A stretch of DNA of 64,000 nt from the NCBI GenBank assembly GCA_015039365.1, contig WION01000244.1:1-64000 (forward strand). The letters run 5' to 3'. The stretch's first letter is position 1. Each line of letters begins with the position of its first letter. Below are positions 16,601 through 55,858 of this stretch, piece by piece. Below the pieces are notes generated by a model. It made no database searches, was not told where the DNA came from, and saw nothing but the letters and a program-made list of their open reading frames with translations. The translations under genes were made by a program, and so were the position numbers. The DNA is from Amanita rubescens (Eukaryota; Basidiomycota; Agaricomycetes; Agaricales; Amanitaceae).

Positions 16601-19600
16601 GGAAAAAGTGATATAATTATTACTAAAGATCTTGCACCAATCCTTCTCGATAATCGAGATACTAATAATGGTATTCCATCCCCTTCCCCTGTTAGGGGAA
16701 GACAACTTGGTCGCAGGCGCACACAATCTCCTCTACCAGCTGACTCTGTAGAGGGAGGAGATCCTGAAAGCGACTCAAGCTCCAGCTCCGGTCACTCGGG
16801 CGATAAACCGGCATCAGTAAAACGAGAATCATTATCACCCCTATCAGATGGCCTTAAAACTCCGTCTTGGGGATTAAAATCTCGTAGTCCAACACCGGAC
16901 GATGCTGATAGACCGGATAGTCCTGATATCAGAAAAGGTTCCACCATGGATGATCTTAGAAGGAGATTCCAAGAAACCATGAGGAACATTGACGATGAAC
17001 TAGAGGACCTGGAAGCAGGAGAAAGAACTCGCCTGCTGGAAGAAAACAGTGGACTTCGTGACAGGCACACGAATATAGAAATTCGTAGACGCAATGCGGA
17101 TGAAATCTTAAAGAAATTCATCCCTGACAGAAGTCCACCACGCACGAATACTAGAGAACAAGTCTTGGATATTAGAAAAAGACTTGCAGAAAGATTCGCG
17201 CCAAATAGGAACCTTGAACAAGGAAATAAAGATCGTATACCAATCTCTGAATTCAAAAAGGAGATTGATGAACAAATTCCGATGCCAGATCTAACTTTTA
17301 ATAAAGTTAGAGAGGAATTTGGCAAACGATCAACCGTTCAAAAGCCTATAAATCCAGCAGATTATATCCCTGAAACGATTAGACCATCATCCAAAGCCAT
17401 GGGAAAACGTAGAGAAAGATCCAAATCTTTAGATAGATCTCATAGACCTCGTAGTAAACAGAGGCTAAATGAACCCACTCCAGTGGTACCCCCACCGGCA
17501 GTAGTTCCCCGGAGATCTAATCGCGTTCCCAAGCCAATTATACGTAAAGACAATGCGTATGGTGAAAAGAAGGCAGTTGAAATAGAAAAAGAAATTCTCA
17601 GACAAAGAGATCTGATCAAATATCAGATTGACAATTACGAGAATGACTTTGGTGGTCGTATCCCAAATAAGGATGCGGCTACACGCTTTAATCCAACTGC
17701 TAAAACACCGCCTTCAAGATCTATGGATATAGATCCAAAGGCAACGATGGCTAGGATGATCAAAGAGTGTGGAAATGACTTCATGCATTTCCTACTCATG
17801 AATATGATACCAAGAGAAGAAATTCGAACGTATCAATATAGGGATATATATAAGATCAAAGGTGAAAATATTGATCTATATAAGCAGTGGCGAACTGCTA
17901 TGGAAGACGAGTTCAAATCTCTACAGAATAGAGATATATGGGAATTAATGGAATTACCAAAAGGGCGTAACCCAATAAAGTGTCGTTGGGTTTATGATAT
18001 TAAGTCGGATGGCCGTAAAAAGGCACGACTTGTCGCCAAAGGCTTTAGCCAACGCCCGGGATTGGATTATGATGAAACATTCTCGCCGGTAGCGAGATAT
18101 GAAACAATTAGACTTCTTCTGGCAACAAGTGCTTTAGAAAATTGGGATATTGAAGCACTTGACGTTAAAACCGCTTTCCTCTATGGCGACTTAGACGAGG
18201 AAATATATATGCAACAACCAGAAGGTTTCATCATTAAAGGACAAGAATCTAAAGTATATAAACTTAAGAAAGCTATTTATGGCTTAAAACAAGCATCGTA
18301 CGCTTGGAATAAACAAGCAGACAAATCCTTGAAGTCCCTAGGATTTAAACGATGCTTAGCCGACTCTGGCATATATGTCAGAACCACAGATAAAGATATT
18401 ACCATATGTGTAATATATGTGGACGATATACTTTTCATGGGAGACAGAACCGAAACAATTTCATATATCAAAAAGGAGTTTATGAAAATGTGGGAATGTC
18501 GTGACCTAGGAAAAGTCAAAGAATACTTGGGCATCAGAATCAATTACGACCGAGCGATTGGTACGCTTGTAATAGATCAAGCTGCCTATGCGAAGACAGT
18601 CGTAGAACGCTTTGGTTTGTTAAATTGCAAACCGGTGTCAACTCCTTTACCTGCAGGATATGTACCTGCTAAAAACACCTCTGAAGCATCCTCCGAGGAT
18701 AGATCCTATTATCAACAAATAATTGGATCGTTATTATATCTCGCCTTAGGAACTAGGCCTGATATTGCTTATGCTGTTATCTTAATGTCACAATTTTCTG
18801 TTAATCCATCATACGACCACATCCAAAGGGCGCTTTATATAGTAAAATATATAGCGCACACCCTTGATACACGAATCACTTATTCCAGAAATGGGAAAGG
18901 CTTCGTTGCCTATGCAGACGCAGATTGGGCGTCTGACAGAGAGACTAGAGTCTCGGTTACAGGCTATGCCTTAACTTTGGCAGGGGGTGCAGTTTGTTGG
19001 GTTTCTCGAAAACAGAAAACAGTTGCGTTGTCATCAACGGAAGCTGAATATATGGCAATGTCCGATGCCTCACGTCAAATTATGTGGGTGCTAAACCTAT
19101 ACCAAGAATTAGGTTTCCCCTTGGGCGGCATTGACCTTCTTTGCGACAATCAGGGTGCGATATTTCTGGCATCAAACCCTGCACAACAGCACAAGTCAAA
19201 ACACATTTCCATTCGCTATCATTACATTAGGGAACGTGTTGAACAAAAAGAGATCAATCTTTATTACGTTCCCACCAATCAACAAATAGCGGACTTAATG
19301 ACTAAGAATCTGAATAGAGAAAAGATTCAGTTCTTTATAAATGAATTAGGAATCACCGTTAATGTCACTCCATATCCCACTATCAAAATGCATAGTGCAA
19401 GTCACTGGATACACCTTTCAGCCGAAGGGTTAAATGGAGTTGAAGCAACATTCATGTATACGAACTGGCGACAAATTTTCGTTCGTGATATGCTTGATCC
19501 GAAAGTACCAAAGGATACGTTCATGAATAGAAAAGAAGATCTTCTGCCGAAACCAGTTAGAGATCGTATTATGAAGACATACGAACCTATAAGGCAGTCA

Positions 19601-19735
19601 AAGATCAAAAGATCCTTTAGACGAGAAGACATTGATATGTTGGACTCGTGGAATCTTTTAGAAACATTGACGGATGAAAATAAATTCCTAGTAGAGTTCA
19701 TTAAGAAGAAATGGCGAATAAATGTTCTAGGATGA
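13640..19735 (+). CDS. gag-pol: Copia Gag-Pol polyprotein, 2031 aa
   Basis: A single unbroken frame. The N-terminal ~250 residues form the copia Gag (LLKGDNYRLWARKM). There is no CCHC knuckle; an RGG-type block occupies about residues 261-285. The protease has DSGAS with catalytic Asp534. Integrase has an HHCC zinc region (WHKRLGHPS at 698 on, C-x2-C in RCEGC) and a catalytic D764, then SDRGGEF and a Glu in the NGRAERM region. A long disordered, charged linker (about 1010-1400) is followed by RT with RWVYDIK, ALDVKTAFLYGD and YVDD at 1593-1596. RNase H includes ADADWASD (1759-1766) and SSTEAEY. About 120 further residues follow RNase H, with no known domain. The length is well above the 1300-1500 residues usual for copia. 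It starts 6 nt after the accessory ORF, so its translation may need leaky scanning, reinitiation or a separate transcript. Confidence 0.95.
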   Translation: MSEDSASLSTVPLLKGDNYRLWARKMTAYLQVKGIYKYMRDSFIQPLDLNDTEQATLEAHDFDATLPAEEGVAPLLAPIPANIQALLDQRDTYLEWLSDNEKALGSIMLRLSDSIAEIYDTGAHLNARVLWVALRQRYGDTGRTGTFNEFQAALDWKLDERRDPEQSLNEIIAKFERLSGQGFSLPEEQKAMIIVRGVPHRWDNFVGAVLATAPAAGLTVQHVAIQIREEWRRRHSAVAHTTAQMARGDLQQRIGGQAPWQGRGRGRGRGRGGFRGRGRGRGGFQPYTPQNQQPAMGAGNAPRLPEQQQQWQGQMTNQTRGRNWQRNRQLRQTAKANRAAARADAHQVTSGMTYTGQNQTQYTAAPAILGHHSIVPFVQGSSAGRIQEVTPMQEEPLIEGAYDDQPNDNFTAFDDYDMKNYDDSAYDDYYNDEWVKSYFSTDWANSYSVDVCKTISDSVIVYNMECNKNSCKSKNVPMRVSPISPNYKNKVHIAYPMHTTGNQHQHIICAGRTDNCKCPSCCTERTGETLWMCDSGASEHFTFNLNDFSDYKPFDKVKLVKTADGTSDLIGQGTVIFIHKLSNGTSHLVKLYPVLYMPRLNIRLVSNGMLCKQGLLASQDDQRITFSYKDGKKEIYLEASYRNQDTLTLCTGRIIHKNVHKVPPFFERESVNTYTHVDKAPPVETYTVNESVSTYDIWHKRLGHPSKDVFQHLKGHVKGFEKGDLPKPSPNLRCEGCLKGKMKAKTYKESKKRASRPLEMIHMDLKEFPTQSYHKYKYILVVVDDYSSYVWIGFLKHKSDTTEVFQRWFTKVSALNKRILYLRSDRGGEFVNKAFKDFLNKNGIQHQTSAPHIHQQNGRAERMIQTLNDKSEAMRLDACIPRSWWEFSIETAVHVYNRTPIVRGNWKTPSELLYSSLPDVQYFKVFGCEAWVFIPVEKRSDKLSPKSELMTFVGYELGSKAYKFMDSNNALVISAQATFFEDRFPRKGKSDIIITKDLAPILLDNRDTNNGIPSPSPVRGRQLGRRRTQSPLPADSVEGGDPESDSSSSSGHSGDKPASVKRESLSPLSDGLKTPSWGLKSRSPTPDDADRPDSPDIRKGSTMDDLRRRFQETMRNIDDELEDLEAGERTRLLEENSGLRDRHTNIEIRRRNADEILKKFIPDRSPPRTNTREQVLDIRKRLAERFAPNRNLEQGNKDRIPISEFKKEIDEQIPMPDLTFNKVREEFGKRSTVQKPINPADYIPETIRPSSKAMGKRRERSKSLDRSHRPRSKQRLNEPTPVVPPPAVVPRRSNRVPKPIIRKDNAYGEKKAVEIEKEILRQRDLIKYQIDNYENDFGGRIPNKDAATRFNPTAKTPPSRSMDIDPKATMARMIKECGNDFMHFLLMNMIPREEIRTYQYRDIYKIKGENIDLYKQWRTAMEDEFKSLQNRDIWELMELPKGRNPIKCRWVYDIKSDGRKKARLVAKGFSQRPGLDYDETFSPVARYETIRLLLATSALENWDIEALDVKTAFLYGDLDEEIYMQQPEGFIIKGQESKVYKLKKAIYGLKQASYAWNKQADKSLKSLGFKRCLADSGIYVRTTDKDITICVIYVDDILFMGDRTETISYIKKEFMKMWECRDLGKVKEYLGIRINYDRAIGTLVIDQAAYAKTVVERFGLLNCKPVSTPLPAGYVPAKNTSEASSEDRSYYQQIIGSLLYLALGTRPDIAYAVILMSQFSVNPSYDHIQRALYIVKYIAHTLDTRITYSRNGKGFVAYADADWASDRETRVSVTGYALTLAGGAVCWVSRKQKTVALSSTEAEYMAMSDASRQIMWVLNLYQELGFPLGGIDLLCDNQGAIFLASNPAQQHKSKHISIRYHYIRERVEQKEINLYYVPTNQQIADLMTKNLNREKIQFFINELGITVNVTPYPTIKMHSASHWIHLSAEGLNGVEATFMYTNWRQIFVRDMLDPKVPKDTFMNRKEDLLPKPVRDRIMKTYEPIRQSKIKRSFRREDIDMLDSWNLLETLTDENKFLVEFIKKKWRINVLG

Positions 19736-19739
19736 CTTA

Positions 19740-19750
19740 GCGAGGGGGTG
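19740..19750 (+). promoter_or_regulatory. Copia polypurine tract
   Basis: GCGAGGGGGTG abuts the 3' LTR just after the Gag-Pol stop. A purine run at this place primes plus-strand DNA synthesis in LTR elements. Confidence 0.75.
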
Positions 19751-20154
19751 TGACGAAGTTATCTTATCTAATCTAAGATAACAAGGAGATCTTATCTTAT
19801 CTGCTTACTAAGCAGATTAGGATATATATAGATAGAACCTTGTAGAAGGTTCTAGTACGCTTGCGTCATCCTTACTGCGGATGGCGCCATATGACACCAT
19901 AGCTGCGCATGACATCAGCGCAGCTCCATATTTCCATATATGAGTATGACATATGTAGTTACATATATTTACCTATGTTGTTACCTATTAGGACACAGAC
20001 AGTATATAAACCTGCCATGTACCGTAGAATAGGAACAAGCTCTCTTAACCTCGTACCACCATCTTCTCAGCTGAGTGGTCAGCTACTGTACACATCGGGT
20101 AAGCTATCGCTTTAACTCCTCGACGCTGCGCTACTGGGCGTTTCCCTTTCGTCA
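19751..20154 (+). repeat. Copia 3' LTR
   Basis: 404 bp. I see no difference from LTR1 when the two are read side by side. It is followed directly by the second GTTAC. Confidence 0.97.
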
Positions 20155-20159
20155 GTTAC
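20155..20159 (+). repeat. Target-site duplication GTTAC, right copy
   Basis: Exact copy of 11827-11831. Together they fix the ends of the copia insertion to the base. Confidence 0.95.
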
Positions 20160-20699
20160 ATCCAAGGGAAAGGAAAAAACCAGATGACGGTTAGCGGCAC
20201 AGTCACCACCTTAGATACTTTCCAAAGGCACAAGACGGAGATCCTCATAGACTCGGGATGTACCGGATCCTGCGTTAATGAAAATTTTGTACGGAAACAC
20301 AATATTAACACGCGACGTCTAGACCGACCCATCCCCGTATACAACGCCGATGGTACGCCTAACTTAGGAGGAGCATTAAAAGAGATGGTACAATTGAGGA
20401 TGCAAATCGGAGCTCACTACGAAGTCTTCGAATTCGGAGTATCAACGCTCGGAAAGGTCGACATATTCTTAGGACACGATTGGTTAAAACATCATAACCT
20501 GATTGTGGATTGGAAGAAGGGCTCACTCCTCATGAAACGCTGCCCAGGTGACTGCCATATAGACGAAAAGGATGAGGAAGGAATAGATACAGAAGGCGAT
20601 GATAAGACCGGTGGAACACATGAATGGGAAGAAGGCGATAGATTGATAGCGGTAATGGAGGAAGAGCAGTACTTTACACTCCCCCCCCAGTCCGATTAG
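20160..20699 (+). CDS. pol: Ty3/gypsy Pol, aspartic protease part
   Basis: The Pol frame resumes after the copia insertion and gives a retropepsin-like domain with the active-site motif IDSGCTGSCVNENFV (D-S-G) near 20246 and a second conserved block GHDWLKHHNLIVDW near 20474-20515. The C-terminal part is acidic (DEKDEEGIDTEGDD). The ORF ends at 20697-20699 in the left terminal repeat of the inserted non-coding element, so the stop is an artefact of that insertion. The protease would cut Gag and Pol in particles. Confidence 0.85.
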   Translation: MQGKGKNQMTVSGTVTTLDTFQRHKTEILIDSGCTGSCVNENFVRKHNINTRRLDRPIPVYNADGTPNLGGALKEMVQLRMQIGAHYEVFEFGVSTLGKVDIFLGHDWLKHHNLIVDWKKGSLLMKRCPGDCHIDEKDEEGIDTEGDDKTGGTHEWEEGDRLIAVMEEEQYFTLPPQSD

Positions 20700-23132
20700 A
20701 CTCCGACAGACTCCTAGGACTCCTATAGGACTCCTATAGGACTCTGATCACTTTCTGATAAAATGTAAAAAAAGGTAAAATGGTAGGAAACATGTTTGGC
20801 TTTGTTTGTTTATGTTTGTTTATATTAGGCATCTTAACTTGCAAAAGAAATCCAAAATCCTTAAAAATAGGGAACCATGTTTGGTATTGTTTATTTATGT
20901 TTATTTATATTAGGTATCTTTAACTTGCAGAATAAATTCAAAAAAATACTGAAAAAATGCGGAAAATCCATGTGATCCAGGTTATATAAGAATTATAAAA
21001 CCAAACAATGGCAAACTTGACATATTTGCAAAATACTTTTCAGATGCAAGTGTGATCTTGAAAAATGCACACAAGGTCATGCAAGAATTAGGACACAAAT
21101 CTGAGCCAAATTCTAGGTAAATGTAAAGGAATGTATCACCACTCCATGTGACCACCTGCAAAGCCATAGTTGAACCCAACACAATTTGGGTGTGTCTGGC
21201 TGGTGATGATGAGTCAATGTAGTATGTGTGATCAGTTAGAAAGGGCTGGCAGTGGTGAAAGTCAGTTTCAGTAATGTGACTTGAGTGGTGAGTAGCTGCT
21301 GAGGTCAAGGACATTGGCAACATGCACATGGCAGTGGCTGCTGGAGGTGCAGTGCAGAGTGCCAGTTGAAGTGATGATCTAGTTTTAGTTCCACAATCCC
21401 ACATGTTTGTTGCCAGCAACAACCAATGACTCACCACCAATCACCTATGATTGTCAATTTGTCATAGGTATGTAAATATGAGGGATTTGTGATTATGTAT
21501 GTATTGAAGTCAAGGGGTGAAAGCAGGTGGAGATGAGTTCTTGGTTATTTGGTCGGATGGTATGGCACAGTGAGCTGTGGTTGTTAGAAGCATATTAATA
21601 ATTGTCTGACTGTCTGACTATCTGACAGGCACTGACAGATGCTAACACACTAATTGTCTGGTTGTCTGACTATCTAATAGGCACTGACAGATGCTGACAC
21701 ACAGATTATCTGACTGTCTGACAGACAGTGTTTCATAAGTTGTCTGACTTGTCTTCAGACTATCTAACCATCTGAGCAGTGAGAGACACTTAAGCATCAG
21801 ATAACATCAGACAAGTCTGTGATCAGACTTTTGCTGTGTTAGCTGATGTACTAAGCTTCCACACTAGAAGCATACGGTGGCAAAGTTAACTCAGCAATGG
21901 TTAACTCAAATACTAAGAGAACAGTGATGATAGAAATTGAACAGAGTGTGGACAATGATAGATAATTTGATGATGAGTAAGTAGAGATACATAAGTGGGT
22001 CTGTCACTTCCAAAACTAATCAGGCATGCATAATGTGGGAGTCAATACTATTAGTAACAGAATGGTGGCTCAGTGACATGTAATAGGCTAGTATCAACTT
22101 CAAGTTCCAATCACAGTGGCAGTGACATCTGGCACCTGTGACCTGCCACACTGAGTGCCCTACTATGGATCATTATCAGCTACCTCCAATCACAGGTACT
22201 ATTAGTAATTTGAAGTTAAGTACAGTGCCTAGGCCAATATCAGTCAGTCTCACCTTTACTAGTACTATAACTTTATGGTTGTCCATGCTCTGTTCCAGAA
22301 TTGCCTCAAACCTAAGACTATGATATTCTATTGTTTTACCTAATATGTTTGAAGTTTCTCTGACCCCACACCCCCAGTGGTTCAATTGTCTTATCAACAT
22401 AACCAGGGGCCCTTGTACAAAGTCACAAGATGTTTTGGCAACCTATCAATTTTCTCTCCATTATATCTGAAGAATAAATTACAAATATCTTGGGTTTGGC
22501 TCTGTTCTAGAGCATGATTCTTGCACCATCTTGATCACATGATTTTTCCAGATTTTTCAAGATTTTTAGCAGCCTTTCAATTTTTCAACATGAAGTGTTT
22601 AAAACAGTATTTTGCAAATATCTTGAGTTTGGCATTGTTTGGCATGTTAATTTCCACACTAATCTGATCGCATGATTTTTCCAGATTTTTCAAGATTTTT
22701 GGCAGCCATTCAATTTTTTAACATGAAGTGTTTAAAACAGTATTTTGCAAATAACTTGAGTTTGGCATTGTTTGGCATGTTCATTTACACACTAATCTGA
22801 TTACATGATTTTTCTGCATTTTTCACATTTTTTTTTCCAAATTTTCCCACGGTCACACAGTACTCTTGGCAAATGGTAGTATTACAAATGAGACTACAAA
22901 GACTACATTAAAAAGCGCAGAATTGTCGGAGTCCTATAGGAATAGTCCTATTAGAGTCCTATGTCCTATTCGAGTCCGTCGGAAGGCTTCCTATTCATCC
23001 GATACCAGTCCGATTGAAAAATGTAGTGTTAAAAAATTTGTAATGTTAATGTAATCTTATTTGTAATAAATTCCGATGTGACTCCTATAGGACTCCTCGG
23101 ACTCCGATCGGAATAGGGGGGGGACAGTAAAG
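20672..23132. mobile_element. Non-coding insertion with terminal inverted repeats, 2.46 kb
   Basis: The left end CTTTACACTCCCCCCCC followed by AGTCCGATTAGACTCCGA is mirrored at the right end (23132 back to 23098) by CTTTACTGTCCCCCCCC and TATTCCGATCGGAGTCCGA. Subterminal regions repeat GACTCCTATAGG words. The interior has no transposase-like ORF but carries internal tandem duplications. These are a ~95-bp pair at 20790-20940 (TTGTTTATTTATGTTTATTTATATTAGG type), a GTCTGACTATCTGAC repeat zone at 21600-21830, and a 125-bp unit repeated at about 22540, 22670 and 22800 (TGATTTTTCCAGATTTTTCAAG). It looks like a non-autonomous DNA transposon. A clear target duplication was not found. Confidence 0.7.
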
Positions 23133-26100
23133 ACCTCGAGGAAGAGACGGAAGGATGGGAATTGAGAGCATACGCGACCACGGCGACTGAAATAGCAGCG
23201 GCGAATCAGACAAAACGTGATACGAAAGATATCATAGTACCCGCTCACTATTTGAGTCACCGAGAAGTATTCGAAAAAGAAACGTTTGACGAGCTACCAA
23301 AAAGGGGAAGATGGGATCATGCGATTGAATTGATACCAGGCACAAAGGCCGTAGATTGCAAGATTTACCCACTAAATAAAGAGGAACAAACCCAATTGGA
23401 CGCGTTCCTGAAAGAAAATCTAGAGACGGGACGGATAAGGACCAGCAAATCCCCGATGGCTTCACCTTTCTTTTTCATTAAAAAGAAGGATGGAAAACTA
23501 AGACCAGTACAAGATTATCGGAAATTGAACGAGATGACGATCAAAAACCGATACCCCTTGCCGCTAATATCGGAATTAATAGACCAACTCAGTCACGCCC
23601 GAGTATTTTCGAAAATGGACATCAGGTGGGGGTACAACAACGTACGGATAAAGGAAGGAGATGAGTGGAAGGCGGCGTTTAGGACCAATCGAGGATTGTT
23701 CGAACCGCTGGTGATGTTCTTTGGACTTACGAATTCACCGGCTACATTCCAAACGATGATGAACGACATATTCCGAGAAGAGATAGCAGAGGGATGGGTA
23801 GTGATATATATGGACGATATATTAGTGTACTCCCAAGACGAAGAGACGCACAAACTACACGTAAATAGGATCCTAAAAAAGTTGAAAGAGCACAAACTAT
23901 CGTTAAAAGCGGAAAAATGCTGGTTCGACCAGAAAACGATTGAGTTTCTGGGATTGATAATATCACACGATTCAATACGCATGGATAAAGCCAAAGTCCG
24001 GGCGATATTGGATTGGCCACGACCAACGAATAAATGAGAACTTCAGCAATTTTTAGGATTCGTGAACTTTTACCGACGATTCGTAAAAGGATTCGCAAAA
24101 ATAGCCAAAGCACTCACACAACTGACGGGAAAGGAAGGATGGATGTGAACAGTATTACAAGAGGAAGCATTTATGGGACTGAAGATGAGGATTGGGGAAG
24201 AAGTGGTGTTAGCGATACCATCAGATAAAGGAAAATACAGAGTAGAGACAGACGCATCGGACTTTGCCATGGGAGCGGTACTATCGCAACAACAGGAAGA
24301 CGGCACATGGAGACCGGTGGCCTTTATTTCGAAATCGCTCAACCCAGCGGAACGAAACTATGAAGTCTACGACAAGGAATTGTTAGCAATCATGCACGCC
24401 TTGTATGAATGGTCTCACTACCTGAAAGGGACGGAGGAACAGATCGAGATCTTAACGGACCATCAAAACTTAACATACTTCCGAAAACCTCAGAACGTCA
24501 ACCGAAGACAAGCGAGATGGGTGTTGGATTTACAGGAGTACAATTTTGTCCTGAAACACAGACCCGGGAAAACCAACACCAAGGCCGACGCCTTGTCTAG
24601 AAGAGCGGACCATGATAAAGGAGAAACGGATAATGAAGGGACGACGTTGTTAAAAGAAGAATGCTTTATAAGAGTATGGGAAGAGGGAGACGATTTACAT
24701 AAAATGGAAAATGAGTTGAGGAAAATAAATCCTCGTCAATGGGAAGAGAAAATTAGGAAAGCGGTAGAGAATAAGGAAGACGGGTGGCAGGTGCGAGACG
24801 GAGGATTGGTGACTTGGCACGAGAGGGTGTATATCCCTGTTGTACGAAAGCTCCGAGAACAATTCATCGCGGAACACCACAGATGGGGACATTCAGGAGT
24901 AGACAAGACGATAGAATTGATGTTACGAAACTATTGGTGGCCGGGACTACGAAGGGATGTGGAAGACTACGTGCGAAGTTGTAGGACATGTCAGACCGCT
25001 AAACCGGATAGACAAAAGAAAGCCGCGCCTCTGCATCCGAACAAGACGCCGAGAGGACCATGGAGTGTAATATCGGTGGACATGATCGGACCGTTACCCG
25101 AATCCAAAGGGTTCAACGCCGTGTTAGTAGTAGTAGATCGATTTACGAAGAAAGCGTATTTCATACCTACAAATACGACACTTTCTAGTCAAGGAACGGC
25201 TATACTATTCAGAGATCATGTTTTCAGAGAGCACGGAATACCAGAAAAGGTTATCAGCGATCGAGGACCTCAATTCGTATCCAAATTCATGAAGGAACTG
25301 TATCAAGTACTTCGAATTAAAGCCAACCCTTCCACTGCTTACCATCCGCAAACAGACGGACAGACGGAGAGGGTAAATCAAGAAGTGAAAGAATTCTTAA
25401 CGATGTTCGTAAATCATCAACAAGATGATTGGAGTGACTGGTTAGCAGTGGCTCAATTCTGTCATAACGACCGAACACATTCGGCTACTGGATTTTCCCC
25501 GTTCTTCTTGAACAACGGACGTAATCCTAGGAAAGGACTTGAACTGACGATGGAGAGGAAGGTACAAGCAGTAGACGAATGGGTGGATAGGTTGGTGGAA
25601 GCGTGCGATCAAGCGAGGAAGGGACTGAATAAGGCGGCGGAAAATATGCGAAAACAATACGATAAAAAGAAACAACCAGCGAGAAATTACCAGAAGGGTG
25701 ATAAAGTCTATATTAGCGCCCAAAATCTACCTTCGCTACGAACGACAAAGAAGTTAGATGGGAAGTTCATAGGACCGTACGATGTGGTTGAAAAAGTGGG
25801 ATCAACGGCTTATCGAATCAGAATACCCGTATCATGGAAGGTCTACAATGTTTTCAACGAAGCGTTGTTGAAACCCCATGTACCGGCTAAATTCCCTAAG
25901 CAAATAGCGCAGGAAAAAGAATGGGCAAAAAGGAAGGAAGAGGATCACGCCAAAAAAGACGAGGAGTTTGAAGTAGAGGAAGTAATCGATAGCAGGCAGA
26001 GGACGCAGAAAGGAGCACGTACGGGGAGGTTAGAATATTTGGTGAAGTGGAAGGGATATCCCAACGAAGAAGCGACATGGGAACCGGCGGGTAATCTGGA

Positions 26101-26371
26101 GAACGCTCATCGCAAGGTCCAAGAGTTTCATAAGAAGAAACCGAATGCACCCAGACCGTTGGCGATGCCCGCCAAGTTCTTTCAGAGGTACCACAACTAT
26201 ACGGATCCGCCGGTACATAAGAAGTTATTTGGATGGGAAGACGGGAAATTCGACAAAGGATACTTGAAGAATATGAACAAGAAGTGGGCAGAATGGAAAC
26301 ATATGAGAAAAATCGTGGAGGAAGACGATGATGATTCTCGGGACGAGAATCTTAAGGAGGGGGTGATGTAA
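23129..26371 (+). pseudogene. pol: Ty3/gypsy Pol: RT, RNase H, integrase, chromodomain (two stops)
   Basis: RT carries KKDGKLRPVQDYRKLNEMT and the catalytic VIYMDDILVY (near 23802-23832). RNase H carries RVETDASDFAMGAVLSQ near 24240-24290. Integrase carries the H-H-C-C zinc region (HHRWGHSGVDKTIEL then CRTCQ), D in VDMIGPLP, SDRGPQF, and QTDGQTERVNQE. A chromodomain follows (about 25968-26130, VEEVIDSRQ, LEYLVKWKGYPNEEATWEP). In-frame TGA codons at 24035-24037 (before [15 protein letters not shown]) and 24146-24148 (in GWM-stop-TVLQEEAF, where the family has Trp) kill the ORF. Both look like transitions. The frame differs from the protease part because of the inserted element. Chromodomains in this family are known to guide integration to heterochromatin, which fits the location. 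Confidence 0.9.
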
Positions 26372-28424: not shown

Positions 28425-31400
28425 TTAATGTGCTGAAGATATATCAGCTAGTATTCCAGCCCAAAAGAAACTGGACTTACATAATAAATTGTTAAGAACT
28501 AATTTTCTGTATTCAGCACACTCTTCTTCAGATGGGCAATGCTTCATGATGAACCAATCATTGATGGCCATTGACCTCAAGTAGTTGTCCAGGTCTTGGT
28601 CAACCAGTGCATGCTGGGTGTTGAGATAATATTGCCAGGCCTTGGTGAATCCATCATTAGAATTGCAGCCTTGCTGGACAAGCCAGAAGGAATGTTCAAG
28701 ACAGATGAGGATGGCTGTACAGGTAATGGTAAGAAACTGTAAATATAAAAGAAATGGCAAAATTAATCAGACCAATGAAACAATGCAAAGAAGGTACCTA
28801 TGTAATTGGGAATACTTAAGTGAAGGGAATGAAAAGAATGAAATATGATCCTACATTGAATTGAGTGTCCATAAGACCTTGAACATGTTTCACCTGTGAA
28901 TTCATGCCTATTAATAAAGTAGGGCAAAGAGAGTAGGTGGGAAAGACAGGTACAAACTAAACAAGATGTGAGAGTGATGTCAGGAATTCAGGAGATGCAC
29001 AGTGACTCACTTTCTGGATGGGATTTCATGGTAACATGTCAGCAATTCAAATTGGGCTAGGAGGCACACAGTCACTCACAACCTGTATGAGATTTCATTG
29101 CAACATGTCAGCAATTCAAATTGAGCTAGGAGGAACACAGTCACTCACAAACTGGATGGGATTTCATTGCAACATGTCAGCAATTCAAATTGAGCTAGGA
29201 GGCACACAGTCACTCACTCGCTGGATGGCAACATGTCAGCAGTTCAAATTGAGCTACTGAGGCACATAGTCACTCACTTCCTGGATGGGATTTCATGGCA
29301 ACATGTCAGCAATTCAAATTGAGCTATGTACAGTCACTCACAAACTGGAGGGGATTTCATGGTAACATGTTAGCAATTCAAATTGAGCTAGGAGGCACAC
29401 AGTCACTCACAAACTGCATGGGATTTATGGCAACATGTCAGCAATTCAAATTGAGCTAGGGGGCACACAGTCACTCACAAACTGGATAAAATTTCATGGC
29501 AATATGTCAGCAATTCAAATTGAGCTAGGAGGCACACAGTCACTCACTCGCTGGATGGGTTTTCATGGCAACATGTTAGCAATTCAACTTGAACTAGGAG
29601 GCACACAGTCACTCACTCCCTGGATGGGATTTCATGACAACATGTTAGCAATTCAAATTGAGCTAGGATGCACACAGTCACTCACTGACTGGATGAAATT
29701 TCCAACATGTCAACAGTTCAAATGAGCTTGGAGGCACAGTCACTCACTCCCTGGAGGGGATTTCATGGTAACATGTCAGCAATTCAAATGCACTAGGAGG
29801 CACAATCACTCACTCCCTGGATGGGATTTCATGGTAACATGGCAGCAATTCAAATTGAGCTAGGAGGCACACAGTCACTCACTTCCTGGATGGGATTTCA
29901 TGACAACATGTCAACAATTCAAATTGAGCTAGGAGGCACACAGTCACTCACTCCCTGGATGGGATTTCATGGTAACATGTCAGCAATTCAAATTGAACTA
30001 GGAGGCACACAGTTACTCACTCCCTGGATGGGATTTCATGGCAACATGTCAGCAATTCAAATTGAGCTAGGGGGCACATAGTCACTCACTCGCTGGATGG
30101 ATTTCATTGCAACATGTCAGCAATTCAAATTGAGCTACTGGAGGCATACAGCACTCACTTGCTAGATGGGATTTCATGACAACATGTCAGCAATTCAAAT
30201 TGAGCTAGGAGGCACACAGTCACTCACAAGCTGGATGGGATTTCATGGTAACATGTCAGCAATTCAAATTAAGCTAGGAGGTGCACAGTCACTCACTCCC
30301 TGGATGTGATTTCATGGCAACATGTCAGCAATTCAAATTGAGCTAGGAGACACACAGTCACTCACTTCCTGGATGGGATTTCATGGCAACATGTTAGCAA
30401 TTAAAATTGGGCTAGGAGGCACACAGTCACTCACAACCTGGATGGATTTCATGGTAACATGTCAACAATTCAAATTGAGCTAGGAGGCACAAAACCACTC
30501 ACTTCCTGGATGGGATTTCATGGCAACATGTTAGCAATTCAAATTGAGCTAGGAGGCACACAGTCACTCACTCCCTGGATGGGATTTCATGGCAACATGT
30601 CAGCAATTCAAATTGAGCTACAGGGCACACAGTCACTCACTTTCTGGATGGGATTCCATGGCAACATGTCAGCAATTCAAATTGAGCTAAGAGGAATGGA
30701 GTCACTTACTCCCTGGATGAGATTTCATGGCAACATGTTAGCAATTCAAATTGAGCTAGGACTCGGCACACAGTCACTCACAACCTGGATGGAATTTCAT
30801 GGCAACATGTTAGCAATTCAAGTTAAGCTAGGAGGCACAGTCACTCACTCCCTGGATGGGATTTCATGGCAGCATGTCAGCAATTCAAATTGAGCTAGGA
30901 GGCACACAATCACTCACAAACTGGATGGGATTTCATGGCAACATGTTAGCAATTCAAATTGAGCTAGGAGGCACACAATCACTCACAAACTGGATGGGAT
31001 TTCATGGCAACATGTCAGCAATTCAAATTGAGCTAGTCAGAGGCACACAGTCACTCACTTCCTGGATGGGATTTCACAGCAACATGTCAGCAATTCAAAT
31101 TGAGCTAGGAGGCACACAGTCACTCACAAACTGCATGGGGTTTCATGGCAACATGTAAGCAATCCAAATTGAGCAAGGAGGCACACAGTCACTCACAACC
31201 TGGATGGGATTTCACAGCAACATGTCAGCAATTTACATCAAGTGAAGGAGGCACACAGCAACTCACCTTCCAGATAATGAGGTGAATCATTTCTATCAAT
31301 TTGGAATCCTCCAAGTAACTTGCTTATTACCTCCTATACACTGCATTCACAGGTTGACTTCCTAGTATGACTTTGAAATTCTCACATTTCTCTCCTTATC

Positions 31401-32940
31401 ATTTACATAATTAGTATATTGTTAAATCAGCTTAATGTCACACCCACATACTGAATATCCAGGTTAAACCTTGTCACCAATATTGGGTCATGATACTTAC
31501 ATCCTGAAATATCTGTCATCACCATCTTCCCTGGCTCAAGCAGAAGTGGATTCTCACATGATGCTTCACAATGTCAGTCATAGGTCAAGAAAATGTATTT
31601 CAATTTTCATACCTGCCAATAGCAATGTCCAAACCAAGATGCAGCCTTGTAAATCAAGCCATGCTTTGTTTATTTGAGCACTCAAATCTCTACAATTGAA
31701 GAAAAATGTACCACTGTTGAGGTATTCTCAAAGATAAACCTCATAGAGAGATAAGTTGCAGCAACACTGGTATATGAGTGGATGACAGACTTGTTCACTG
31801 CATATTCAATGCAGACCTCTAGGTTATTCTGTTGGACAGTGACAAACAACATCTTCAGTGCCAAGTCATCAATTGATGCTGCTGTTTGTTTGATTAGTTC
31901 CCCAACTTGTTCCTGATCATTACCATTTTCCTCTTGGATGGCTGGCCATGCTATAAGTCCCAAGATTGGTTGCTAAAGGATAAGAGACATACATTCAAAT
32001 CGCACATATGCACAAGGTGGAAACTTGTAGCCCTTAAGTGGCTTCTCAAATTTCTTCTCCAAGGTAGCACAAGCAATTTCTCTATTCTTCTCATCTTCTT
32101 CATTCCTATCATAGACTTGTGTGATGAGATCATCAAATTTTGTGAAGATTGCCACAACCGGAACTGTCTGTGGTCAGTCACAGTGAAGATTCTATTGAAC
32201 AATCTTACCATTCCCACAATATTGCTCATTGAAGAACCTCTGTTCCAATTCCAATAATGGGCGAGATACATCTGGAGCAAAACAAAACCTGAACACATTG
32301 TCAGTTGCACTGCCACATAAAGGAAGGATAACACACCATATCGCATGGATTTGGTCCTTTACTTCAGTTGCTTTTGCCTTCTCCTGTATGAAAGAGAGTA
32401 CATCCTGAAGTTCCTGCTCGCCTCCTGCCTCAAAACCAGGAGAGTCATGGAAGATAAATTGTGGGTTGCTCTTGAATGAAAACTCTTCCTGTACATTATG
32501 AATCCCTCGCTAGAGCATCCGAGTCAAAGTCAATGACCTGTTTAGAGAAATACGCAAGGATCACCTTCGAGGACGGGTTAATCTGTCGGTGAAGGGGTGA
32601 TGATGGTGGGGTATCAAGCAAAGTGGATACTATCTCTTACCTGGTTGTAAACTGGATCCTCCCTCGTATTGCAGACCCGCTTCAGCAGCGTCGTTTTACC
32701 AGCATTCGCCCTCCCGATGACGAGGATACGGAAGTGGGTGTACTTGGCCCGAAGTTTCGCAGCTTCTACCGGGTCGGTCGTCATCGTTGGTACAGTGAGT
32801 GCTAGATCAGCTGGAGCCACATCAACGGTTGGAGGCGCCGAATTCGAGAGGCTAGGAGGCGATCCCCGTCCGAACATCTTCCTCAGGCGATTACGAAATC
32901 CCTTGGACTCTTTGGCAGTCTGCGACCGTTGGTCAGCCAT
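28425..32940 (-). CDS. Multi-exon P-loop GTPase (G-domain protein), C-terminal hydrophobic segments
   Basis: Exons on the minus strand, all with GT-AG introns: 32940-32641 (100 codons, start MADQRSQTAKE), 32537-32337, 32288-32209, 32167-31993, 31950-31740, 31689-31613, then less certain exons around 31500 and 31320-31268, and a last exon to 28425. Visible motifs are the G1 P-loop GRANAGKTTLLKR (exon 1), FHDSPGFEAGG (G3, D-x-P-G type, exon 2), AIFTKFDDL (G4-like TKxD, exon 4), AASIDDLALKMLFVTVQQNN (exon 5), WLDLQGCILVWTLLLAG and TACTAILICLEHSFW-like hydrophobic segments towards the C-terminus. This layout matches the expanded AIG1/TrmE-type small GTPase family of agaricomycetes, whose role is unknown. 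One base is out of frame near 32505 (between DSDALAR and IHNVQEEF), so exon 2 may be frameshifted or mis-joined. The intron after 31268 holds the 69-bp tandem array. Confidence 0.8.
29012..31267 (-). repeat. Tandem array of ~33 intron-like 69-bp units inside a GTPase intron
   Basis: On the minus strand each unit reads GTGAGTGACTGTGTGCCTCC, then AGCTCAATTTGAATTG, the branch-point-like CTGACATG or CTAACATG, then CCATGAAATCCCATCCAG. That is 66 nt from GT to AG, followed by a 3-nt spacer (TTT, GAA, GGA, CGA or GTT) before the next GTGAGT. The array starts exactly at the 5' splice site of the host intron (exon end ...CTGGAAG, 31268). A few units are shortened or carry small indels (for example at 29222, 29322, 29697). 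The plus strand is open in many units because the period is divisible by three (GFHGNMSAIQIELGGTQSLT repeats). That plus-strand peptide is taken as a by-product. Confidence 0.9.
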
Positions 32941-43330: not shown

Positions 43331-44170
43331 GCCATCCGGATTGCAGCCCCTAGTTTCTGATCACCGCCACCACTCCTTGCCTTGACAGTAGCCCAGCACC
43401 ATATCTCATCCACCACCCATGATTTCCATTCATCACTACCGTTTCTCGCCTCGATGGTGCCCCAGTGCCAGCTCTTACCCTGCCACCTATGATTTCTCTT
43501 CACTGCCGCCACTTCTTGCCTCGATGGTTCTCTAGTACCATGACTTGGCCCACTGCCCATGGTTTTCCTTCACCATCGGCGCTCGTTGCCTTGACGGTGA
43601 TCTGGCACCATCACGCGCCTCACCACCGATGGTTCCTCTTCACCACCACCATTTCCTGCCTCGATAGTTCTCCAGCACCATGGCCCACCCTGCCACCCAT
43701 GGTTTCCTTTCACCACAACCTCCTCCTGGCGAAATGGTGTTCTGGCACCATGACGTGCCTGATCGCCGACGGTTTTTCTTCACCACCACCATTTCTTGCC
43801 TCAACAATTCTCCAGCATCATGACGCGCCTCGCCGCCCACGGTTTCCCTTCACCACCACCTCAACAGTTCTCACTGCCCATGGTGTCCTTTCACCACGAC
43901 TGCCTCCAGCCTAAACGGTGCTCGTGCACCATCACTCGCCACTGCTCACGGTTTCCATTTACCGCTGCCACTCCCTGCCTGCACGGTGCTCCAGCACCAT
44001 CACTTGCCTGACTGCCACGGTTTCTATCCACCGCTGCTGCCACTCTTTGCTTCGACGGTGCCCCCGCACCACCTCTTGTCTGACCGCCCGTGGTTTCCAT
44101 TTACCACCCTGGCCTGAATGGTGCACCTGCACTACTCGCCCTTCTGCGCATGGTTTTTCTTCACTCTTTC
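43331..44170. repeat. Minisatellite, about 72-bp unit, roughly 11 copies
   Basis: Units recur with CCATGGTTTCCNTTCACCACC, TGCCTCGACGGTG, and a small hairpin GGTGCTCCAGCACC or variants. Spacing between CACGGTTTC-type words is near 70-72 bp (for example 43769, 43841, 43948, 44018, 44090). Units have diverged, and several frames stay open through the array, which explains long apparent ORFs on both strands. Confidence 0.8.
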
Positions 44171-47840: not shown

Positions 47841-48930
47841 GGTGCCAGCTGGGCAAAGGTCTGGTGGTGCCGAAAAACCACTGTTGGGCGAGGGTCTGAT
47901 GGTGCCAAAAAACCACTGCTGGGAGAGGGTCTGGTGGTGTCGAAAAACCACGCTGGGAGAGGGTCTGGTGGTGCCGAAAAACCACTGCTGGGCGAGGTTC
48001 TGGTGGTGCCAAAAAACCACTGTTGGGCGAGGGTCTGATGGTGCCAAAAAACCACTGCTGGGAGAGGGTCTGGTGGTGCCGAAAAACCACTGCTGGGCGA
48101 GAGTCCGGTGGTGTCGAAAAACCACGCTTGGAGAGGGTCTGGTGGTGCCGAAAAACCACTACTGGGAGAGGGTCCGGTGGTGCGATAAAACCATCACTTG
48201 GTGAGGGTCTGGTGGTGCCGAAAAACCACTATTGGGCGAGGGTCTGGTGGTGTCGAAAAACCACTGCTGGGCGAGAGTCTGGTGGTGTCGAAAAACCACG
48301 CTTGGAGAGGGTCTGGTGGTGTCGAAAAACCACTACTGGGAGAGGGTCCGGTGGTGCGATAAAACCATCACTTGGTGAGGGTCTGGTGGTGCCGAAAAAC
48401 CACTATTGGGCGAGGGTCTGGTGGTGCCGAAAAACCACTGTTGGGTGAGGGTCTGGTGGTGCCGAAAAACCACTGTTGGACGAGGGTCTGGTGGTGCCGA
48501 AAAACCACTGTTGGACGAGGGTCTGGTGGTGTCGAAAAACCACGCTGGGAGAGGGTCTGGTGGTGCCGAAAAACCACTGTTGGGTGGGGGTCTGGTGGTG
48601 CCGAAAAACCACTGTTGGGTGGGGGTCTGGTGGTACTGAAAAACCACCCCTTGGCGAGGATCCAGTGGTGTGATAAAACCACTGCTGGGTTCAGTGGTAC
48701 GAAAAAACCATTGCTGGGCGAGGATCCGGTGGTACAATAACACCAAGATTGGGAGGGGGTGTGCTGGTGCGAAAAAACTACTGCTGCGCGAGGGTCTGGT
48801 GGTGCGAAGAAACCACTGCTGGGCGGGGGTCCAACGGTGCGAAAAAACCACTGCCGGGTAAGGGTCCGATGGTGCAAAAAGACCACTGGTGGGCGAGGGC
48901 CCAGTGGTGCTAAAAAACTACAGTCTACAG
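47841..48930. repeat. Minisatellite, 35-bp hairpin unit, about 31 copies
   Basis: The unit is GGCGAGGGTCTGGTGGTGCC followed by GAAAAACCACTGTTG. GTGGT and ACCAC (or CAGTGG/CCACTG) within each unit form a short hairpin. Because 35 is not a multiple of three, one frame cycles through three peptides (RVWWCRKTTVG, RGSGGAEKPLLG, EGLVVPKNHCW), and all frames on both strands stay largely open. No start, splice context or codon bias argues for translation. Higher-order copies (about 48060-48240 versus 48240-48420) are nearly identical over 180 bp. Confidence 0.92.
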
Positions 48931-55090: not shown

Positions 55091-55858
55091 ATGCGTCTCT
55101 TGCCCGCCGTCGCCATCGCCCTCCTCTTTGACTCTTATGTCACTGCCGATCCCATGCCACGTCATGCACAAATTGCATTTCCTGAGCCTGAACCTTATCA
55201 TCGGGCCGCGCCAACATTTCCTCAATGGGAGCCGTTTGGTTATCCCCCGGCGCAAGCATTTCCTCATCCCGTCATACCATTTCCTCAGCCCTACTATAGT
55301 CATCCGAGTAGCCCACCAAAATTTCCTGAGCCCCAGCCGTATATTCATCCGAGTCGCCCACCACCATTTCCTCAGCCTCAGCCGTATATTCATCCAAGTC
55401 GCCCACCACCATTTCCTCAGCCTCAGCCATATGGTCGCCGCCCACCACCATTGCCTCCTCGACCCAATGGTCGCCGCCCACCACCCCTGCCTCCTCGACC
55501 CAATGGTCGCCGCCCACCACCACTACCTCCTCGACCCAATGGTCATTCGACGCCATCTTCTCTCCAACCCTCCACCGGTCGTCGCACGAGTACAGTGCCC
55601 CCGCCGTCGTACTCCGGCCCGGAGCCCGACTGGGATCACCTTGACGACCCCCCGCCCCCGTACGTTGATTCCCGGCCCTCATCTCCCGCTGAAGATGATG
55701 GCCCTCGCGACCCCCCAATGCAAATTTTTCGCCACGGGCCCCCTCGAGGGCTGCCAAATTGGCCAAGTACAAAAGCGATCAAAGCGGTCAAAGCAGATGA
55801 AATGCGACGCCAACTTGCTAGGCAACAGCGTGCATCGCGGAACCCAGGGCAGAATTAA
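55091..55858 (+). CDS. Secreted proline-rich repeat protein, 255 aa
   Basis: An uninterrupted ORF. Residues 1-20 (MRLLPAVAIALLFDSYVTAD) form a signal peptide with a likely cut near A19. After it come PFPQPQPYIHPSRPP-type repeats (about residues 70-120, 3 copies, 51-bp DNA period), then NGRRPPPLPPRP repeats (about residues 120-155, 3 copies, 36-bp period). A PPPPYV motif (PY/WW-ligand type) follows near residue 195, and the basic tail includes ADEMRRQLARQQR. Such proteins are usually wall-bound or extracellular. Repeat number may vary between strains. The upstream TATA and signal peptide support expression. Minus-strand ORFs here are shadows of the repeats. Confidence 0.75.
   Translation: MRLLPAVAIALLFDSYVTADPMPRHAQIAFPEPEPYHRAAPTFPQWEPFGYPPAQAFPHPVIPFPQPYYSHPSSPPKFPEPQPYIHPSRPPPFPQPQPYIHPSRPPPFPQPQPYGRRPPPLPPRPNGRRPPPLPPRPNGRRPPPLPPRPNGHSTPSSLQPSTGRRTSTVPPPSYSGPEPDWDHLDDPPPPYVDSRPSSPAEDDGPRDPPMQIFRHGPPRGLPNWPSTKAIKAVKADEMRRQLARQQRASRNPGQN

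Follow-up and report, generated by a model that had tools for sequence, protein, structure and literature searches.

The window, a stretch of 64,000 nt at the start of contig WION01000244.1 of Amanita rubescens (contig C162 in the genome-wide searches, which covered the 75.7-Mb genome), contains on its minus strand a gene for a GTPase with a fungal Era/MMR_HSR1-like G domain, and this gene carries a tandem array of short intron-like units. Each array unit, mostly 69 bp long, is composed of an intron-like body (GTGAGT at its start, a branch word and AG at its end) and exactly 3 nt that separate it from the next unit. Judging from the sequence, these spacers are most likely single-codon exons. 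The support consists of the exact 3-nt spacing, the invariant GT and AG, the phase-0 flanks, the residues found in homologous proteins and the presence of the same layout in other GTPase subfamilies.

Tandem Repeats Finder (TRF) located a tandem repeat at positions 28998–31266 with a period of 69, 33.2 copies and 86% matches, and cutting the minus strand at GT[AG]AGT gave 33 units between 31266 and 29011, in agreement with the original prediction of about 33 complete intron-like units in tandem. AG closes every one of the 33 units and a 3-nt spacer follows each, as had been described; GT and AG are kept in every unit despite this being an older array with 4.9% body substitutions. Other details of the first description held for most units but not for all. 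A perfect GTGAGT, ascribed to every unit, is present in 32 of 33, one unit having GTAAGT (30709). The branch word CTGAC or CTAAC was found in 28 of 33 units, the exceptions being CTTAC (31196), TTGAC (30502, 29951 and 29747) and CTGCC (29882), in which the branch A is lost. The sequence CCATCCAG, given as the 3' splice site, is the commonest 3' end but is not universal (others are, for example, CCATGCAG, TCATCCAG, CCCTCCAG and TCATACAG). In the order of transcription the 33 spacer codons read V F E F F G V G K G E V E G L Q R G G E G G S G R F F F E R F V K. The third base of the spacer triplets of the 69-bp arrays is mostly T when the second base is T (TTT, CTT, GTT) and otherwise A (GGA, GCA, CGA, CAA, GAA, AGA).

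The same spacing was found outside the repeats. The non-repeat flanks of the gene share the layout AG-6 nt-GT, then AG-3 nt-GT at GAT, TAT, GAG, AAG and TTT (Table 1), and all exon boundaries of the chain are in phase 0. The phase at the first of them, CAG/GTATG (a slash marks a splice boundary), was set from the homologs P0002, P0003 and P0012. A first gene model with an exon ending in ..DISG in phase 1 was dropped once the 6-nt exon had been found; genomic read-through open reading frames (ORFs) have NH or NY at the place of this exon (P0161, P0158, P0165, P0168, P0169 and P0173). The predicted protein reads ..HCYWQ-DY-D-Y-E-K-X(n)-F-VNHVQGLMDTQFN-FLTIT..., with VNHVQG directly after F. The original prediction had put the first unit at the real donor of the host intron and the multiplied unit inside that one intron, and neither statement was supported: the intron chain starts 346 nt upstream, at CAG/GTATG (31612), the AAG just before the first unit resembles a one-codon exon in most paralogs (TCTAG/AAG/GTGAG), and the array lies between coding exons, within a chain of one-codon exons. 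In the window copy, the acceptor TAG before AAG is changed to TGG, and the AAG exon may be skipped with the frame kept. The donor after the TAT exon is GTGGGT in this copy and GTGAGT in 25 other copies.

Table 1. Features of the GTPase gene of the window, with exons and introns as predicted
Feature	Position	Strand	Basis or remark
GTPase gene (fungal Era/MMR_HSR1-like G domain), ATG at 32940, stop at 28425	28425..32940	-	Sequence, homologs
Upstream coding exons with G domain, ending ..KAASWFGHCYWQ (CAG/GTATG), phase 0	31613..32940	-	Exon pieces e1-e6 open here
6-nt exon CATCAT (His-His)	31558..31563	-	Sequence; most paralogs GATTAT (Asp-Tyr) or GATCAT (Asp-His)
One-codon exon GAT (Asp)	31501..31503	-	TTCAG/GAT/GTAAG in 25 of 26 copies, GAG in one
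One-codon exon TAT (Tyr)	31448..31450	-	Y in 12 of 12 homologs
One-codon exon GAG (Glu), TATAG/GAG/GTAAT	31331..31333	-	In most copies; missing from four with a fused intron
AAG (Lys), one-codon exon in most paralogs	31267..31269	-	Paralog comparison
Tandem array of 33 near-repeat introns (57-69 nt, mostly 66), a one-codon exon after each	29011..31266	-	Sequence
Final diverged 54-nt intron GTGAGTCAC..TTGTTTAG	28957..29010	-	Sequence
One-codon exon TTT (Phe), TTTAG/TTT/GTACC	28954..28956	-	F in 10 of 13 homologs
39-nt exon VKHVQGLMDTQFN, phase 0, CACAG/GTG..AAT/GTAGG	28855..28893	-	Sequence
Last exon FLTITCTAILICLEHSFW.., open to stop	28425..28736	-	dN/dS 0.45 over 24 copies

A hand-made model of a paralog (C13) matched PF01926 (MMR_HSR1) with an E-value of 9.8e-8 and 32.5 bits against a cut-off of 21.9. 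The P-loop exon e1 was found in 11 of the 26 copies with any exon match, most of the other fetched stretches starting downstream of e1. The PF01926 match and the P-loop place the gene among the fungal G-domain GTPases; a PDB sequence search returned a weak match to the GTPase Der alone (E 0.0027). The database model of the window copy, P0216, ends before the array, and the same is true of all seven database models examined (P0001–P0005, P0007 and P0216).

As to the surroundings of the gene, positions 1–207 of the window hold 29.6 perfect copies of TAAACCC, and the contig seems to start at a telomere, with the GTPase gene about 30 kb from it. Open frames on the plus strand at 20103–26371 resemble, judged by eye, a Ty3/gypsy-type retroelement (protease, reverse transcriptase, integrase and a chromodomain-like end). 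A GC-rich tandem array with a period of 35 and about 31 copies is located at 47848–48918, its consensus being without GTGAGT. Further tandem repeats at 43483–44100 and 55276–55544, with periods of 70–140 and 36–45, respectively, perhaps encode repeat proteins.

The array was found at a common position in 27 copies of a paralogous GTPase gene. A search with a 23-mer unit core at up to 2 mismatches showed that the units exceed chance: it gave 587 matches genome-wide and none in a reversed control, 585 of the matches lying inside 26 fetched arrays, and the 27th copy was found by inspection to hold two more core-type units. In this last copy (C114:42000-47500, L064) the array is interrupted by two inserted stretches. 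The copies have from 7 to 42 spacer codons (the AAG codon is counted in some of them), mostly G, R, A, F, L, Q, E and V. The last exon gave 27 matches across the genome, including two halves of one frame-shifted copy (C114b) and the far part of C134a, which seems interrupted within this exon; C49 is without it. Exon matches were obtained for 26 of the 27 copies and contain no stop and one gap (e1 of C114c); in C114b the match to the last exon breaks off at residue 47, and one TAG is present in the last exon of C99. The mean dN/dS values of four coding exons were 0.16, 0.32, 0.35 and 0.45 (14, 18, 24 and 24 sequences, respectively), and therefore the gene family is under constraint.

The upstream one-codon layout was present in 26 of the 27 copies, the fetched stretch of C134a beginning too late, and is as follows: HCY.., an intron of 46–49 nt, the 6-nt exon, an intron of 53–57 nt, GAT, an intron of 49–56 nt and TAT. 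The 6-nt exon is GATTAT, GATCAT, AATTAT or CATCAT, and GAT is replaced by GAG in C311a. The acceptor before AAG is lost in C134b as well as in the window copy. Downstream the order is TTT (CTT in C134a; C49 is cut off), the 39-nt exon and the last exon. Four copies (C179, C168, C114a and C311a) have a fused intron and are without the GAG, AAG and TTT exons. Their first unit is fused into the upstream intron with the frame kept and their last unit is cut at the branch word (CTGACAG/GTGAACC), as if recombination had taken place at short shared words.

The distribution of variation within the units was analyzed in two ways. In 531 units with a 66-nt body, collected with a search pattern in which the splice motif was largely fixed, variation was 0–5.5% at the positions of the body and 47, 55 and 29% at those of the spacer. 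A single 66-nt body sequence recurs unchanged 337 times across 22 arrays, with ten different triplets behind it, and between adjacent units with identical bodies the codon differs in 191 of 267 pairs. The site diversity was 0.025 for the body versus 0.565 for the spacer codon, i.e., about 23-fold higher in the latter; in the array of C134b (24 units) the body diversity is 0.0012 and the triplet diversity 0.541, about as elsewhere. Since neutrality predicts equal diversity, the 23-fold excess points to selection that keeps the codons different or to mutation aimed at the codons. The array had been suggested to be a route to new introns, but it is the spacer codons and not the introns that vary most. 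For the bodies the distance is 0.029 between arrays and 0.026 within an array; for two introns that flank the array in these genes it is 0.063 (24 copies) and 0.090 (22 copies). Because the bodies are as alike between arrays as within them and more alike than the flanking introns, the array introns appear to be homogenized across loci; one consensus body is common to 22 of the 26 arrays.

The second analysis was an alignment of about 653 unit boundaries in the 26 arrays that was not conditioned on the splice motif. No substitution was found at G1, T2, A65 and G66 in 2611 site-units, where 39 would be expected at the mean body rate of 631/42056 (1.5%), and the branch A was substituted in 1 of 631 units; note that the units are duplicates, and hence the boundary counts are not independent trials. 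Thus one half of the outcome that had been named as refuting, splice motifs varying as freely as the rest, did not occur, and the presence of constrained and favored positions separates the array from a plain intronic minisatellite. Insertions beside the motifs were observed after positions 5 and 66 (8 each), 65 (3), and 4 and 6 (1 each), some of them being the odd-length spacers. The spacer was 3 nt at 645 boundaries and of another length at 6. The purity of spacer length does not decide for or against selection in the 69-bp arrays, the three frame-breaking spacers being about the number that the body indel rate would give.

Arrays of this layout were not restricted to the 69-bp family. A three-unit pattern with 3-nt spacers, mostly excluding this family, gave 318 overlapping matches in the genome and none in the reversed control; with 4-nt and 2-nt spacers, 1 and 0 matches were found (0 and 5 in the respective reversed controls). 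Among the matches listed there were at least 29 array loci outside the 69-bp family, 16 of which had a scored GTPase exon 0–7 kb upstream on the same strand; of the 13 remaining loci two were inspected (C133 and C353) and both were GTPase-like. A 63-bp unit, unlike the 69-bp unit in sequence and with variable triplets, is present in C133, C353, C397 and C408. These 63-bp intron-plus-codon arrays (C133:78478-80620, C353:39917-41480, C397:19636-21199 and C408 at about 19479-20181) belong to another GTPase subfamily, and those of C353 and C397 look like mutual copies.

In six loci chosen by the 3-nt-spacer pattern (C33, C133, C61, C73, C192 and C353), with the near-identical 63-bp arrays left out, 147 of 152 GTRAGT donors had AG exactly 3 nt upstream. 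Their 153 spacers, of 33 types, include no stop codon, where 6.2 would be expected if positions were independent, and this stop avoidance in diverged loci is modest support for the codon reading. An intron finder blind to exon length was then applied to these loci and the window gene, 63-bp arrays included, and predicted 63 exons of exactly 3 nt in C33, 49 in C133, 60 in C61, 38 in C73, 26 in C192, 32 in C353 and 35 in the window gene, as compared with 0–2 in shuffled or antisense DNA. In the same order, the exons of up to 60 nt were divisible by 3 in 68/74, 53/58, 65/70, 39/40, 28/29, 35/35 and 36/37 cases. Locus L076, a GTPase copy taken from the list of G-domain matches and not chosen for an array, has 31 predicted 3-nt exons in 3.8 kb. 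The introns of C33, C61, C133 and C353 are diverged repeats (mean pairwise identity 0.66–0.71 versus 0.53–0.55 when shuffled), and those of C73 and C192 have mean identities of 0.56 and 0.55 versus 0.53 and 0.50, their best partners having a median of 0.68. The statement that the introns are unrelated in all other loci was accordingly dropped, the shuffled level being approached only in C73 and C192, and this makes the codon reading slightly less certain. A G-domain exon was found in the fetched stretch of C33, C61 and C133 and upstream of C73 and C192, and C353 shares its last exons with C133. In total, the G-domain exon gave 347 candidate matches, of which 150, on 117 contigs, were scored, and the expansion of the GTPase family in A. 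rubescens is extreme.

To compare the gene with its counterparts in other fungi, two protein searches with the C-terminal part were used, which gave 9 and 219 matches; 71 of the 219 were examined, together with six more proteins found only in a separate homolog search. Eleven largely intronless proteins, all from jgi contigs of 0.9–1.6 kb, span both flanks (P0121, P0122, P0125, P0072, P0089, P0086, P0084, P0131, P0132, P0148 and P0077); P0134 reaches the 5' side only, and P0129 and P0145 the 3' side. Most of the spanning proteins are unbroken across several A. rubescens intron positions. They carry motifs like HDYGK and then a low-complexity X(n), with Y in 11 of 11, D before Y in 8 of 11 and F after the peptide in 8 of 11. 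Among the 12 proteins with the 5' side, Y is present in all 12, preceded by D in 9 (N in 2, E in 1), and H or Y stands ahead of the D position in 11; after Y there is G in 11 and E, as in A. rubescens, in 1, and the next residue is K in 5, N in 4, E in 2 and T in 1. The F predicted by the TTT exon was found in 10 of the 13 proteins that run through the site (not in P0132, P0148 and P0077; P0134, which ends at the site, was left out of the count). When codons were drawn at random 200000 times from the region of DYDYEK, the score of this peptide against the homolog profile was reached in 4 draws. The low-complexity peptide is, for example, EFRRGRRFQKFGRIGFFFFKFGRRFGIFRKGEQQRFHQFQE in P0121 (41 residues) and only KKKAR (5 residues) in P0131; ten homolog peptides, their ends chosen by hand, contain 6–12 kinds of residue versus 4–9 in the A. 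rubescens arrays.

Other proteins are genomic read-through products. P0161 reads ..HCYFQ/V..EK/NH/VR..FQ/D/VS.., and P0169 is similar, while in P0158, P0165, P0168 and P0173 NH or NY alone is readable. Back-translation of P0127, whose frame runs across a diverged array in another species, allows 9 AG-3 nt-GT sites (mean 1.3 and maximum 4 in 200 shuffled versions). Four other read-through proteins gave 4, 2, 1 and 2 sites, numbers also reached by their shuffled versions, and hence lend no support.

On the evidence of the DNA it is very probable that each unit consists of a short spliceosomal intron and a single codon, that the introns are removed singly and that the codons join in frame, adding a peptide to the GTPase. 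The 3-nt microexons named as potential in the original prediction are thus the favored reading. Intron definition is the usual mode of recognition for short fungal introns. After transcription, each array intron would be removed on its own by intron definition, and consecutive one-codon exons, 36 or 37 of them in the window copy, would be joined into an unbroken frame. The added peptide, encoded by the 7–42 spacer codons of a copy, would lie between ..HCYWQ-DYDYEK and F-VNHVQG... Because nearly all exons are 3 or 6 nt long and in phase 0, the gain, loss or skipping of whole units would keep the frame. Through their homology, near-identical introns would allow unequal recombination, by which whole codons are gained, lost or reshuffled, and diversifying selection may keep the codons varied while the introns are homogenized. 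The peptide may be a hypervariable recognition or interaction loop. Given the number and variability of the GTPases, our guess is that they have a role in recognition or conflict between individuals or with mobile elements. A wider proposal is that a GTPase superfamily of at least 150 copies is diversified genome-wide through a loop spelled one codon per exon, with introns as recombination handles and exon skipping multiplying the RNA variants; unequal exchange and gene conversion would shuffle single codons between sites and genes with the frame safe. This proposal is tentative, being nearly but not quite as probable as its opposite.

A number of observations weigh against the reading of the spacers as codons. 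An additional AG-3 nt-GT site in the flank, AAG/ATG/GTGATG, does not match the homologs and was left out of the gene model. Outside the array the window copy has lost one acceptor and has one weakened donor, and this copy may be decaying. Three spacers are out of frame (2 nt in C57, 4 nt in each of C114b and C134b), which is close to the number that the body indel rate would give, and C114b has other indels too. In the homogenized arrays no stop was found in phase 0 (0/567), but phase 1 is equally free of stops (0/544), and stop avoidance was rejected as proof there. Many of the 318 matches of the three-unit pattern lie in homogenized arrays; in the six chosen loci a few 3-nt junctions per locus are present by choice, and since the introns are diverged repeats in four loci, the junctions there are not independent. 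As to the proteins of other fungi, we infer from their unbroken frames that the spanning ones represent transcripts; in P0148 the stretch GVSGSSSLPNRPLTEIQHNL occupies an intron position of the A. rubescens gene, and P0131 perhaps begins with intron sequence, so that these two could be unspliced RNA or DNA.

Among the other explanations, the one that survives best assumes that alternative splicing skips blocks of units, so that mature RNAs hold varying subsets of the codons and the varied output is the point. It is compatible with one-codon exons. With phase-0 introns and nearly all array exons of 3 nt, almost any skip would be in frame, the likeness of donors and acceptors would ease skipping, and neither the out-of-frame spacers nor the lost acceptor would do harm. 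Each homologous protein, however, is a single sequence, in which neither constancy nor variation of the output is visible, and such skipping is regarded as possible but rather doubtful.

The second explanation is a plain intronic minisatellite: the segment from CAG/GTATG to CACAG/GTGAAA would leave the transcript as a single intron of about 2.7 kb, the inner motifs being by-products of duplication. The outer donor and acceptor are both in phase 0, a single splice would keep the frame, and identical bodies are expected from tandem duplication. Against this, the spacers are some 23 times more variable than the bodies, AG-3 nt-GT also occurs between the non-repeat introns of the gene and in loci whose introns are barely similar (C73 and C192), proteins of other fungi carry HDYGK-X(n)-F-like motifs at the array site, and 4-nt and 2-nt spacers are nearly absent genome-wide. 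This explanation is therefore improbable. Even less can be said for an introner-like mobile intron inserted repeatedly with the 3 nt as target-site duplications. The unit is a complete intron and 22 of 26 arrays have one consensus body, but a single gene family accounts, with 26 arrays, for 585 of the 587 core matches, its 27th copy holding more, and the matches are not dispersed in many unrelated genes; neighboring spacers differ and so are not duplicates of one target, and the 3-nt spacing is found with other introns too. Such an origin is very improbable. Finally, an antisense reading, in which the plus strand would encode a protein made of 23-residue repeats (WMGFHGNMSAIQIELGGTQSLTX), was rejected as scarcely credible: open stretches on that strand reach 162 aa, but many unit lengths break that frame, body variation is by inspection without a three-base rhythm, and the one-codon layout of the flanks would be left unexplained.

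Individual splicing of the single-codon exons is what we infer for A. rubescens. If transcripts confirm it, the exon size is near its lower limit, dozens of times in a row, and the genes would test how the spliceosome copes with acceptor and donor sites set three bases apart. They would represent a frame-proof diversification of proteins in which recombination between introns moves whole codons only, and would allow a direct test of codon diversification amid homogenized surrounding DNA. Ordinary gene callers would then be missing part of a very large gene family.

The layout was compared with known systems, on the basis of parts of the papers cited. The nearest are the schistosome micro-exon genes and SmPoMuc of Schistosoma mansoni. 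A SmPoMuc gene holds at most about 20 units of about 1 kb, each with a 27-bp exon (PMC2576457). SmPoMuc and the A. rubescens genes are both multigene families with tandem exon-plus-intron units within a gene, and in SmPoMuc the unit introns are more than 94% identical, with concerted evolution, exon differences kept and combinatorial output. The A. rubescens arrays likewise combine tandem exon-intron units, homogenized introns and differing exons, the exon status of the 3 nt being predicted; they differ in that the units are mostly 69 nt with a 3-nt exon, reach about 42 per gene and are accompanied by further one-codon exons in the non-repeat flanks, and in that SmPoMuc is a mucin of an animal parasite whereas the A. 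rubescens gene is a fungal GTPase. Schistosome micro-exon genes (MEGs) have exons of 6–81 bp according to the body of the paper and 3–81 according to its abstract, 10–20 exons per gene and introns of 0.1–5 kb (PMC10526429). Many consecutive tiny exons, mostly multiples of three and hard to annotate automatically, are common to both, and the A. rubescens genes, with seven loci predicted to have 26–63 exactly-3-nt exons each, agree with micro-exon genes in this respect. In contrast to MEGs, they have dozens of exactly-3-nt exons, and their introns are mostly shorter than about 110 nt (46–57 nt in the 5' flank and mostly 66 in the array), which does not correspond to the strict MEG intron length.

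The KQY cassette effectors of the pea aphid also have many miniature exons (37 exons of 6–416 bp in KQY1a), but a one-codon chain is not described in the part of that paper used here (PMC7495047). The single 3-bp micro-exon of Drosophila homothorax indicates that splicing of a 3-nt exon is possible; there it is one such exon per gene and no chain, as far as the cited part of the report goes (PMC7392893). Fungal introner-like elements multiply (PMC4457414) and stwintrons are composite (PMC8469720), which is a likeness, but as presented in the sections cited they are dispersed or nested and are not tandem intron-plus-codon units. In Trichoderma Xlr2 a microexon acts as a functional switch, and the abstract claims that no microexon had been described earlier in a filamentous fungus; it is one exon in one gene (PMC11121469). 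A chain of dozens of one-codon exons was not found in searches of one open-access library, a coverage outside which most subscription papers and preprints lie. We therefore call the one-codon-exon chain a new, extreme variant of the micro-exon gene; the diversification mechanism, if shown, would merit a class of its own.

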